Source: Rhodocyclaceae bacterium
Lineage (GTDB): Bacteria > Pseudomonadota > Gammaproteobacteria > Burkholderiales > Rhodocyclaceae
Length of the DNA: 64,000 nt
Reading direction: 5' to 3'
NCBI GenBank assembly: GCA_022072095.1
Contig: JAJVIJ010000012.1
Span: 62,001 to 126,000, forward strand
The notes under the pieces are model-generated. The model was not told where the DNA came from. It saw nothing but the letters and a program-made list of their open reading frames with translations, and searched no databases. The stretch's first letter is position 1; each line of letters starts with the position of its first letter. Position numbers and translations under genes: made by a program. Shown piece after piece: positions 52,354 to 57,248 of the stretch.

Positions 52354-55300
52354 TCAGCTCGGCAGGGCCGCGCGTCGCGCGGCCGGTTTCGTCGTGTCCG
52401 GGTCGATGCGTGCGAGCAGCGCACGGGTCGCGGCAAGCCGGCCATCGAGGTCGGTGCTCGGCTCCTGCCAGACGAGTTTGTCGGAGCCGGTCAGGCGTAG
52501 CGTACGGTCATTTTGCATCAGCGCAATGATGCGGCCCGGGTCCACCGGCGTGTCCGGTCGAAACACCAGCTGGACGCGGTTGTCGTTGGCATCGATCTTG
52601 GCGATGCCAAGCGCGCGTGCGCGCAACCGCAGCCCGTGTGTGGCCAGCAGCACGCGGGTGGGCGGCGGCAGCGCGCCGAAGCGGTCGATGAGCTCTTCGC
52701 GTATCCGTGCCAGGCTGTCGTCATCCTCGCTGTGGGCCATGCGCTTGTACAGCACCAGGCGCTCGTGCACGTCCGGGCAATAGTCATCGGGCAGCAGCGC
52801 CGGCAGGTGCAGATTGACCTCGGCGATCACGGCAAGCGGCGCATCGAGGTTGGGCTCGCGTCCGGACTGGAGGTCGCGGATGGCCTGCTTGAGCAGGTCG
52901 GTGTAGAGCGCAAAACCGACTTGCTGCATTTCGCCACTCTGGTTTTCGCCCAAGAGTTCGCCGGCACCGCGAATCTCCAGATCGTGCATGGCCAGATAGA
53001 AGCCGGAGCCTAGCTCCTCCATGGACTGGATCGCTTCCAGGCGGCGCGCGGCCTGGGCCGTCGGCTTGCCCGCGGCATCGACGAGCAGGTAGGCGTAGGC
53101 CTGGTGGTGCGAGCGGCCGACACGGCCGCGCAGCTGGTGCAGTTGCGCCAGGCCCAGGCGGTCAGCGCGGTCGATGATGATGGTATTGGCGGTGGCGATG
53201 TCGATGCCGGTTTCGATGATCGTGCTGCACAGCAGCAGGTTGGCGCGCTGCTGCGTGAATTCGCGCATCACGCGCTCCAGCTCACGTTCCGGCATCTGGC
53301 CATGCCCGACCACGATGCGGGCTTCCGGCAACAAGGCTTCCAGCTCGGCGCGTGTGCGCTCGATGGTATCGACCTCGTTGTACAGGTAATAGACTTGGCC
53401 GCCACGCTTGAACTCGCGCAGCACCGCTTCCCGGATCGTGGCCCGGGACCACGGTCGGACGAAGGTCTTGATCGCCAGCCGCCGCGCTGGCGCGGTGGTG
53501 ATCACGGAGATGTCGCGCAATCCTTCCAGCGCCATGCCCAGCGTACGCGGGATCGGGGTCGCGGTCAGCGTCAGCAGGTCCACTTCGGCGCGCAGGCTCT
53601 TCAGCCGCTCCTTCTGACGCACACCGAATCGATGTTCTTCATCGACGATGACCAGCCCGAGGCGCGCGAAGCGCACATCGCTCTGCAGCAGACGATGCGT
53701 GCCGATGACGATGTCGCAGCGGCCGGCGGCCAGCTCGGCCAGCGCTTGAGCCTGCTCGCGCGCACTGCGAAAGCGCGACAGCTCGACGATCCTGACGGGC
53801 CAGTCGGCGAAGCGGTCGCGGAAGGTCTGGAAATGCTGCTCGGCGAGCAGCGTCGTCGGCGTCAGCACCGCCACCTGCCGGCCGCCCATCACGGCCGCGA
53901 AGGTCGCGCGCAAGGCGACTTCGGTCTTGCCGAAACCCACGTCGCCGCAAATCAGGCGGTCCATGGGCTTGCCCGAGCGCATGTCGGCGAGCGTGGCCTC
54001 GATTGCCGCCGCCTGGTCGTTCGTTTCGTCGAAACCGAAACCGGCCGCGAATGCTTCGTAATCCTGTTCCGCATACGAAAAGGCGTGGCCTGCACGCGCA
54101 CTGCGTTGCGCGTACAAGGCGAGCAATTCGGCAGCCGTGTCGCGCACCTGCTGTGCCGCTTCGCGCTTGGCCTTTTCCCACTGCCCAGAGCCGAGCTTGT
54201 GCAGGCTGATCTCGTCGCTCGGCAGGCCGCTGTAGCGCTGGATGAGATGCAGCGAGGAGACCGGTACGTACAGGCGGTCACCGCCGGCGTATTCGAGCTC
54301 CAGGAACTCGGTCTCGCCCTCGCCCAGATCGAGATGACGCAAGCCGTGATAGCGGCCGATGCCGTGGTCGATATGGACCACCGGGTCGCCGATCTTGAGC
54401 TCGGTGAGGTCGCGCAACCAGCCTTCGACCGGTGATGCACGTCCATCGCGCCGGCGCTGACGCAGACGCGGCGCGGTCGCGTAAAGCTCGGTCTCGGTGA
54501 CGATCAGCGCGCTGTCGTCGGCCACGCGAAAGCCGGCGGCGAGCGGCCCGATCGTGATCGCGAGCCGGCTGGAGTCCTTCGACCAGTCGGCGAAATGATT
54601 GCAGGGTTCGGCCGGCAGCTTGTGGAGCGCGAGCATCTCGGCGATGGTCTCGCGCCGACCCGGCGATTCGGCCACGATCAGCACGCGTCCGGGGAAGGTC
54701 TGCAAACGGCTGCGCAGCCGATGCAGCGGATCCTCGGCGCGTCGGTCGATGGCCAGCTCACCGGTCGGCAGGGTCAGCGCGCCGGCTTCGGTGCCATCCT
54801 TGTCCGTGCTTTCGGCCGCACCGCTACGAATGGTGCAGCGCGCAAACGCATGCGTGGCGCGAAAAAACTGCTCGGCGTCGAGAAACAGCTCGTCCGGGGG
54901 CAGTACCGGGCGGCTGCGATCGCCCCCCAGCAGGCGATGGCGCTCGCGCGCGTCCCTCCAGAATTCATCGATGGCGGCATCGACCGCGCCATGCAGGACC
55001 AGCAGGCTGTCGGCCGGCAGGTAATCGATGAGGGTTTCGGTCTCGCTGAAAAACAAGGGCAGGTAGTACTCGATGCCCGCGGGCGCGATGCCGTTGGAGA
55101 CATCCTTGTAGAGGTGGGTACGGCTCGGGTCGCCTTCGAAGCGTTCGCGAAAGCGGCTGCGGAAGCGGCTCCGGCCGGTCTCGTCCATCGGAAACTCGCG
55201 CGCCGGCAGCAAGTGGATCTCGGGCACCGGGTACAGGCTGCGCTGGCTGTCGATGTCGAAGGTCTTGATGGTTTCGATCTCGGCATCGAGCAAGTCGATG

Positions 55301-55839
55301 CGGAAGGGCAGCGCCGAACCGCTCGGAAAAAGGTCGATCAGGCCGCCACGCAGCGCATATTCGCCCGGTGCCAGCACCTGCTGGACATGGCTGTAGCCGG
55401 CGGTCAGCAACTGCTCGCGAAGCTTGTCGAGATCCAGGCGCTCATGGCGGCGGATCTTGAAGGCATGCGCAGCCAGGTATGAGCGTGGCGCCAACCGGTA
55501 GAGCGCCGTCGTCGCCGCCGTCAGCAACACGTCGAAATCCCGGCGCGACACGCGGTAGAGGGTGTCCAGACGCTCGGACACCAGGTCCGGATGCGGCGAG
55601 AACGGGTCGTAGGGCAGCGTTTCCCAGTCCGGCAGCAGACACACGCGCAGGCCGGAATCGAACCAGGCGATTTCCGTCGCCATGCGCTGTGCATCGAGAG
55701 GGCTGGCGGCGATGACCGTCACCCCGGCGGAACTGAGTCGGGCAGTCTGGGCGAGCAGGGCGGAGTCCGCCGATCCGGCCAGTCCGGGCCAATGCAGACG
55801 AGAGCCCGAACGTGGCAAGTCCGGGGTGGGCAATTTCAA
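52354..55839 (-). CDS. mfd: Transcription-repair coupling factor Mfd
   Basis: 1161 residues, standard length. UvrB-like N-terminal part (LPDWETLPYDPFSPHPDLVS), RNA-polymerase interaction domain (ELKIGDPVVHIDHGIGRYHG), and RecG-like helicase motor with CGDVGFGKTEVALRATF, VDEEHRFGVRQKERLK and the C-terminal TRCF domain. It releases stalled RNA polymerase and recruits UvrA. The start is TTG at 55839 with AGGA upstream. A MITE-like element sits 36 bp upstream of that start. Confidence 0.97.
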   Translation of the reverse strand: MKLPTPDLPRSGSRLHWPGLAGSADSALLAQTARLSSAGVTVIAASPLDAQRMATEIAWFDSGLRVCLLPDWETLPYDPFSPHPDLVSERLDTLYRVSRRDFDVLLTAATTALYRLAPRSYLAAHAFKIRRHERLDLDKLREQLLTAGYSHVQQVLAPGEYALRGGLIDLFPSGSALPFRIDLLDAEIETIKTFDIDSQRSLYPVPEIHLLPAREFPMDETGRSRFRSRFRERFEGDPSRTHLYKDVSNGIAPAGIEYYLPLFFSETETLIDYLPADSLLVLHGAVDAAIDEFWRDARERHRLLGGDRSRPVLPPDELFLDAEQFFRATHAFARCTIRSGAAESTDKDGTEAGALTLPTGELAIDRRAEDPLHRLRSRLQTFPGRVLIVAESPGRRETIAEMLALHKLPAEPCNHFADWSKDSSRLAITIGPLAAGFRVADDSALIVTETELYATAPRLRQRRRDGRASPVEGWLRDLTELKIGDPVVHIDHGIGRYHGLRHLDLGEGETEFLELEYAGGDRLYVPVSSLHLIQRYSGLPSDEISLHKLGSGQWEKAKREAAQQVRDTAAELLALYAQRSARAGHAFSYAEQDYEAFAAGFGFDETNDQAAAIEATLADMRSGKPMDRLICGDVGFGKTEVALRATFAAVMGGRQVAVLTPTTLLAEQHFQTFRDRFADWPVRIVELSRFRSAREQAQALAELAAGRCDIVIGTHRLLQSDVRFARLGLVIVDEEHRFGVRQKERLKSLRAEVDLLTLTATPIPRTLGMALEGLRDISVITTAPARRLAIKTFVRPWSRATIREAVLREFKRGGQVYYLYNEVDTIERTRAELEALLPEARIVVGHGQMPERELERVMREFTQQRANLLLCSTIIETGIDIATANTIIIDRADRLGLAQLHQLRGRVGRSHHQAYAYLLVDAAGKPTAQAARRLEAIQSMEELGSGFYLAMHDLEIRGAGELLGENQSGEMQQVGFALYTDLLKQAIRDLQSGREPNLDAPLAVIAEVNLHLPALLPDDYCPDVHERLVLYKRMAHSEDDDSLARIREELIDRFGALPPPTRVLLATHGLRLRARALGIAKIDANDNRVQLVFRPDTPVDPGRIIALMQNDRTLRLTGSDKLVWQEPSTDLDGRLAATRALLARIDPDTTKPAARRAALPS

Positions 55840-55869
55840 GACAGCAATCCTGACGAGACGGGGGCAGGC

Positions 55870-56013
55870 ATTATCCTAGAAACCGCAGTTGGACGCGCCC
55901 GATGGTGCGTAGCGATCTCACCCAACAGGCGAAGGCGAGCAAAGGCAGAAAAGTCAGCGCGCATGCGATGTCCGCAACGGCATGGAGCGGTCAACTGAGG
56001 TTTCTAGGATTAT
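55870..56013. mobile_element. MITE-like element with 17-bp inverted repeats and 5-bp target duplication
   Basis: The element spans 55875-56008 (134 bp). Its ends are CCTAGAAACCGCAGTTG (55875-55891) and CAACTGAGGTTTCTAGG (55992-56008), which pair at 16 of 17 positions. A perfect ATTAT direct repeat flanks it (55870-55874 and 56009-56013). No coding frame is credible inside. It lies between divergent mfd and roxA. This is the structure of a non-autonomous transposon. I see no second copy in the window. Confidence 0.85.
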
Positions 56014-56093
56014 GGGCTTGCCGTATTCGGTGCAGGCTGGCCTCCGCGCTCGCGGCCGTATGCGTTCGGCCGGGCGTGCGCGCTCACCGAATC

Positions 56094-56099
56094 TATAAT
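56094..56099 (+). promoter_or_regulatory. -10 element TATAAT immediately before roxA
   Basis: A perfect TATAAT ends 6 bp before the roxA ATG at 56106. Transcription would start at or beside the ATG, giving a leaderless message. No -35 hexamer resembling TTGACA is found at 16-18 bp, so the promoter is weak or needs an activator. Confidence 0.4.
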
Positions 56100-56105
56100 C
56101 GCCCG

Positions 56106-57248
56106 ATGACTGCGGCCTTTCTCGGTGGACTGTCTCCCGCGCAATTCCTGCGGCGCCATTGGCAGAAACGTCCCTTGCTCGTGCGCGGCGCGTTTCCCGA
56201 CATCGATGGGCTGCTCGATCCGGCGGCACTGTTCGCGCTGGCCGCGCGTGATGATGTCGAATCGCGTCTGGTCGAGCGGCCGGGCGGACGCTGGCGGCTC
56301 CGGCACGGACCGTTCGCGCTCGAAGAGCTCAGTGCGCGCACGCGCGCTCGCCGCTGGACCGTGCTCGTCCAGGGTGTCGATACGATCCACGACGGCGCGC
56401 ATACCTTGCTGCGGCGCTTCGATTTTCTGCCCTATGCGCGCGTAGACGACGTCATGGTCAGCTACGCCACACACGGTGGCGGGGTGGGCCCGCATTTCGA
56501 TTTCTACGATGTGTTCCTGATTCAGGGCAAGGGGCGGCGGCGCTGGCGCGTGGGGATGCAGACGTCGCTCGCGCTGGTCGAGGATGCACCGCTGCGCCTG
56601 TTGGCCGATTTCCGGCCGGACGAGGAGTGGGTACTGGAGCCGGGCGATCTGCTCTACCTGCCACCGTGTTACGCGCACGACGGCATCGCGCAGGGCGAGT
56701 GCATGACGTTTTCGGTGGGCTTCCGCGCGCCGGCGGCACAGGAGCTCGCCGAGGCCTTCCTGGCCTGGCTGCCGGAACGCCTCGCGCTCGCTGGCCGCAT
56801 CGCCGATCCTGGCCGCCCGCCGACGTCGACACCGGGCGCGATCCCGGCCGACATGCTGACCATGGCGCAGGGTTTTCTGCGCGGGATCCGCTGGAACGGC
56901 GCGCTGGTCGGCGATTTTCTGGGCGAATATCTGAGCGAGCCGAAGCCGAACGTGTTCTTCGATCCGCCGGCGCGGCCGATGAGCCGATCGCGATTCACCG
57001 TGGCCGCAGCGATGCACGGCTTGCGACTCGATCGGCGCAGCCGCCTGCTCTATCTGCGCGGTCACTACTATCTGAACGGCGAGCAGTTGGCGAGCGCATC
57101 GATGCATGCGCTCGGACCGGGCGGGCGTCGGCGATTGCGTCGTCTGGCGGATCGACGCAGGCTCGCGGCCAGCGCGCTCACCGATGCCGAGGGCGCGTTC
57201 TATTACCAGTGCTATCGCGATGGTTTCGTCTGGCTCAACGAGGAATGA
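56106..57248 (+). CDS. roxA: 50S ribosomal protein L16 arginine hydroxylase (JmjC-type oxygenase RoxA/YcfD)
   Basis: 380 residues. HWQKRPLLVRGAFP at the N-terminus, the iron site HFDFYDVF (HxD), the distal His in PPCYAHDGIAQGE, and a winged-helix C-terminal region. The enzyme hydroxylates an Arg of ribosomal protein L16 with 2-oxoglutarate and Fe(II). There is no Shine-Dalgarno sequence before the ATG. Divergent from mfd across the MITE-like element. Confidence 0.92.
   Translation: MTAAFLGGLSPAQFLRRHWQKRPLLVRGAFPDIDGLLDPAALFALAARDDVESRLVERPGGRWRLRHGPFALEELSARTRARRWTVLVQGVDTIHDGAHTLLRRFDFLPYARVDDVMVSYATHGGGVGPHFDFYDVFLIQGKGRRRWRVGMQTSLALVEDAPLRLLADFRPDEEWVLEPGDLLYLPPCYAHDGIAQGECMTFSVGFRAPAAQELAEAFLAWLPERLALAGRIADPGRPPTSTPGAIPADMLTMAQGFLRGIRWNGALVGDFLGEYLSEPKPNVFFDPPARPMSRSRFTVAAAMHGLRLDRRSRLLYLRGHYYLNGEQLASASMHALGPGGRRRLRRLADRRRLAASALTDAEGAFYYQCYRDGFVWLNEE

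Follow-up and report, generated by a model that had tools for sequence, protein, structure and literature searches.

The window, a stretch of 64,000 nucleotides from a Rhodocyclaceae genome, contains a short element bounded by inverted repeats in the intergenic region between the divergent genes mfd and roxA (Table 1). The original prediction had given the two genes these names, and profile matches bear them out, with TIGR00580 identifying the transcription-repair coupling factor Mfd and PF08007 and PF20514 identifying the ROXA-like JmjC protein. Direct reading of the letters likewise agrees with the predicted anatomy: the element is 134 bp long, its 17-bp terminal repeats pair at all but one position (16 of 17), and it is flanked on either side by ATTAT, duplicated perfectly. 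Pairing between the arms is 84% over 31 nt when the target duplication is counted in. The end sequence, with up to three mismatches allowed, occurs at two places in the 64 kb, both of them the element's own ends, whereas 0.11 occurrences are expected and none of 100 shuffles reached two. As had also been predicted, the element is gene-free; overlapping open reading frames are either fortuitous or belong to the extended roxA frame. Its orientation in Table 1 is the one in which the lost hairpin described below would be 5′ of the retained half.

Table 1 Features of the mfd–roxA region in the window, and related hairpins in other genomes
Feature	Position	Strand	Basis
mfd (transcription-repair coupling factor)	52354..55839	-	TIGR00580, 986.6 bits
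Left target-site duplication ATTAT	55870..55874	.	sequence reading
134-bp internally deleted MITE	55875..56008	+	alignment to long copies
Left terminal inverted repeat CCTAGAAACCGCAGTTG	55875..55891	+	sequence reading, arm pairing, end count
GGTGCGT, junction of the 100-bp internal deletion	55904..55910	+	alignment to long copies
Right terminal inverted repeat CCTAGAAACCTCAGTTG	55992..56008	-	sequence reading, arm pairing, end count
Right target-site duplication ATTAT	56009..56013	.	sequence reading
TATAAT, probable roxA -10 (not part of the element)	56094..56099	+	sequence reading; same position in most relatives
roxA-like ribosomal oxygenase (JmjC and ROXA-like winged helix)	56106..57248	+	PF08007 and PF20514
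Hairpin in elements with other ends (L244, L255, L271, L274-L277, L279, L281-L283, L286, L287)	around 1501		

The probable roxA -10 element stands only 6 bases before the start codon (window 56094-56108), a layout seen in most relatives, and because it lies so near the start codon the roxA transcript may be almost leaderless. Of 27 relatives, about 18 have a -10-like hexamer 12–14 bases ahead of the start codon, and 23 have one within 40 bases. In the sequence read upstream of roxA in relatives, mfd never adjoins roxA, and no unoccupied insertion site came to light.

Related copies and the 100-bp deletion

Six copies of the element are present in the window's own genome (2.82 Mb, 67 contigs), two of them short and four long (233–235 bp). 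The short copies are that of the window (C3, 134 bp, ATTAT on both flanks) and C15 (133 bp, flanked by TTGAA and TTGAG), and the long copies are C28 (233 bp, flanks ATTAT), C5 (234 bp, flanks ATGAT), C1 (235 bp, flanks ATGAT) and C54 (234 bp), one end of which has decayed. Perfect 5-bp duplications accompany four of the six. Alignment to the long copies reveals that the window copy is the long form minus exactly 100 bp, and that the missing segment comprises most of an internal hairpin; no match of the hairpin model rises above noise in the window (best E = 0.14). In the long copies the heptamer GGTGCGT stands at both edges of the 100-bp segment, within longer imperfect direct repeats at the hairpin base (GGACGCGCCCGATGGTGCGT / GGCGTGCCAGCGGGTGCGT). 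Slippage or recombination between these repeats would remove the segment, and since most of it is hairpin, slippage across the hairpin would be the natural mechanism. The 100-bp loss in copy C15 has a different junction, about 10 bp to the left of the one in the window copy, which suggests either two separate deletions between the same repeats or a single deletion reshaped by gene conversion.

Scanning public genomes for an exact copy of the end gave at least 120 loci, nearly all of them, among the matches listed, in beta- and gammaproteobacteria; records labelled Nitrospinota, Bacteroidota and Verrucomicrobia may reflect binning errors. Among these listed matches, perfect 5-bp duplications flank 40 of 74 paired elements on public-genome contigs. 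All 40 duplications have the form nTNAn (T second, A fourth), and 34 are palindromic outside the middle base. The 234-bp length class dominates the listed matches and is common to several genera, with the same 234-bp element present in Thiobacillus, Polaromonas, Rhodoferax and others. Copy number is very high in some genomes (one of 2.9 Mb has 83 forward end matches and 73 reverse ones), and a recognizable long-form copy is present in 19 of 399 genomes of the window's own order. Plasmids yielded only two copies of the element, five viral contigs carry one exact end, and the phage records searched contained none. The same ends also bound elements of 163 bp (L026, L056, L066), 176 bp (L039, L102, L103, L142) and 186 bp (L064), and at L092:1957-3649 a 234-bp-type element has its hairpin split by a degenerate IS1634 and carries a smaller palindromic insertion as well.

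Known prokaryotic MITEs include the Correia elements, QMITE1/2 of Coxiella and TIMEs (PMC5896051, PMC4133298, PMC10969869). Such elements resemble the present one in being gene-free, multicopy and 100–400 bp long, with terminal inverted repeats, a target duplication and stem-loop potential, and the three named groups differ from it in their transposase families and ends. Among the papers searched by title, and in some cases by passage, none deals with or names IS1380-type MITEs, and a search by title found the element's sequence strings in no repeat context.

An IS1380-like partner and competing explanations

An insertion sequence (IS) whose ends match, roughly 1.63 kb long, is intact and multicopy in other genomes, and was found at L074, at L215 and in G153 (other genomes and a plasmid). 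In G153 there are five transposase copies, and three of the four copies for which both ends of the 1639-bp IS were read have exact duplications (ATCAC, ATAAA and TTCAT). Polaromonas plasmid CP087967 carries a 1630-bp IS with TTAAA on both sides and the right end CCTAGAAACGGCAGTTA, and a 234-bp MITE lies about 360 bp from it. At L074, 1625 bp between CCTAGAAACCGCAGTTG and CCTAAAAAACGCAGTTA encode a 507-aa transposase; one end is identical to that of the MITE, and the two flanking pentamers differ. The L074 transposase is 50–61% identical to the other partner transposases and scores above the cut-off of Pfam DDE_Tnp_1_4 and below that of NCBIfam IS1380. For the partner transposases IS1380 is the best family by far, with scores of 170.5, 151.8 and 155.5 bits against a curated cut-off of 180. 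A search for solved structures of the partner transposase found none.

IS1380-family elements have ends starting CC and 4–5-bp duplications, ISEcp1 begins CCTAGA, and the family is related to the eukaryotic piggyBac. The partner IS likewise has CCTA- ends and 5-bp duplications, and shares with ISEcp1, ISSsu5 and ISPsp9 an IS1380-like (DDE_Tnp_1_4) transposase, CCTAG- ends and a 5-bp AT-rich duplication. Its transposases constitute a distant subgroup, just below the family cut-off and about 24% identical to IS1380-family transposases on plasmids. The MITE differs from the family in having no transposase and shares only the terminal 17–22 bp with the partner IS, so its interior is no simple deletion of the IS. 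The CCTAGAAA- end of the element resembles the end of piggyBac, which duplicates TTAA, in contrast to the 5-bp nTNAn of the present MITE family. IS1380 serves as the prokaryotic outgroup of piggyBac (PMC10813416).

The original prediction had proposed a search for the terminal repeat and for a full IS with the same ends; copies were found in the genome and in relatives, and the IS was found elsewhere but not in the window's own genome. No intact cognate transposase was found in that assembly, which is about 96% complete, and for lack of a transposase the copies there are probably immobile at present. An IS1380-type (DDE_Tnp_1_4) transposase fragment does lie near a contig end (G000:C10:63651-63893, L146); it gave no match to the partner transposase at E 1e-15 and so is not cognate at that threshold. 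A related transposase gene was detected in only 5 of 26 genomes searched, all of them element-bearing. Inspection by eye of the open reading frames enclosed by a 1626-bp pair of ends at G101:C128 recognized no transposase.

Short and gene-free, with inverted repeats, a target duplication, several copies and a same-ended autonomous element elsewhere, the element has the features that define a MITE, and the six genomic copies, the four perfect duplications and the IS in other genomes uphold the MITE reading of the original prediction. Taken alone, the window element is unremarkable: it derives by deletion from a widespread MITE of the IS1380 type. We consider it very probable that an IS1380-like DDE transposase acting in trans mobilized the MITE, that the window copy lost its 100 bp by slippage or recombination between the direct repeats, and that it most likely has no specific role. 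Such a transposase would recognize CCTA-N4-CNGCAGTTR ends, duplicate a 5-bp nTNAn target and move in trans a standard form of about 234 bp with a 118-nt hairpin. Between divergent mfd and roxA the shortened copy would most likely do nothing specific and be neutral. The window element would then be a single, probably defunct member of a MITE family that is very widespread, undescribed as far as our searches show and now assignable to a defined group of insertion sequences resembling IS1380.

Mobilization by an IS1634-family insertion sequence, or descent from one as a remnant, was suggested by L092, alone among the 1.7-kb elements in having two exact ends plus a duplication, in which 1693 bp lie between two exact ends flanked by TTTAA and an open reading frame inside matches IS1634 (NF033559, 185 bits); relatives also contain IS1634 elements with CCTAGATACA-like ends. 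The L092 sequence itself refutes this for L092: the IS1634 there is a nested insertion that has ends of its own, CCACCCGA(C/G)TTCGACAGTT, and splits a complete 234-bp-type element within its central hairpin. The window's genome has no IS1634 match, and this origin is very unlikely. A repeat of host regulatory or REP-like nature, retained in place for its function and not transposed, could account for the strongly conserved structure of the long form and its very great abundance in some genomes, but is hard to credit given that the target duplications are perfect and strictly of the nTNAn form and that the element has its terminal repeats in common with an active-looking IS.

A functional insertion that supplies or alters the mfd and roxA promoters is somewhat more likely than these two but still improbable. 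Only 30 bp separate the left duplication from the mfd start codon, so the insertion must have displaced whatever part of an mfd promoter lay further upstream, and the left junction reads GATAAT towards mfd. The original prediction had read GGATAAT and GGATTAT outward at the two ends as resembling a -10 element that could change expression of both genes. These letters are indeed present, but the last five are the target duplication itself: the -10-like hexamer at each junction consists of G and the duplicated pentamer, and therefore changes with the target site. In addition, 55700-56200 contains no promoter-like site (sigma-70-like hexamer pairs) and no terminator was found there, and roxA keeps its own TATAAT, intact downstream of the element and conserved in relatives. 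The proposed effect on expression of the two genes is accordingly not supported; the element may act on mfd, given how close to the start it inserted, though nothing supports an effect.

The hairpin of the full-length form

With the window element read as a trans-mobilized MITE, the point of interest is the conserved hairpin module of its family rather than the window copy. Elements of the 234-bp class can be folded into a hairpin of 118 nt (for example L011:1519-1636 and L030:3327-3444; model R1). Across 31 elements, changes on both sides occur at 38 of 43 pairs, a count to which related copies do not contribute independently. Pairing is retained in 95.1% of cells, compared with 73.9% in shuffles and 28–47% in slid controls, and none of 500 shuffles was as high on any measure. 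G-U cells number 167, about the shuffle value of 170, whereas A-C cells number 12, well below the shuffle value of 52, and this depletion of A-C with G-U at shuffle level points to one strand folding as RNA or single-stranded DNA. At 18 loci, neither the element nor the hairpin had an Rfam match up to E 0.1.

With a covariance model of the hairpin, a single genome yields as many as 77 copies, and 26 of the 185 genomes in a class sample contain a match. Weaker significant matches (E 1e-5 to 1e-16) lie inside elements with different terminal repeats, including CTAGGGCCTGTTAACACT (with two hairpins), TATACTTCGCGCGGTCACGAC, TACTAAGCTTCCATGAAGTATTGTCAGG, CTAGGGCGTGTCGTCAT and others (Table 1). In an alignment fitted to the model, the stem sequences of these hairpins differ while pairing reaches 93%, and the internal loop CAAGGCGC ... 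GCAACGC is exact in 12 of 18. Together, the strong covariation, the conserved internal loop and the recurrence in different-ended elements suggest a functional structured module common to bacterial MITEs. Template-switch repair of quasi-palindromes can also generate paired changes, though it would tend to remove, not keep, a fixed internal loop. We tentatively propose, as a reading with a reasonable but not yet even claim to be right, that the 118-nt hairpin is an undescribed structured nucleic-acid module selected on one transcribed or single-stranded strand, with a fixed internal loop and stems that covary freely, that is shared by beta- and gammaproteobacterial MITEs with unrelated ends and may serve the elements or their hosts. 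It might act, for example, as an RNA or by binding a host protein.

Two genomes rich in element ends (G108 and G115) have no hairpin-model match. In the alignment, viewed by eye, copies of the Thiobacillus type, L011 among them, seem to have the two strands of the internal loop exchanged in comparison with the Polaromonas/Rhodoferax type.
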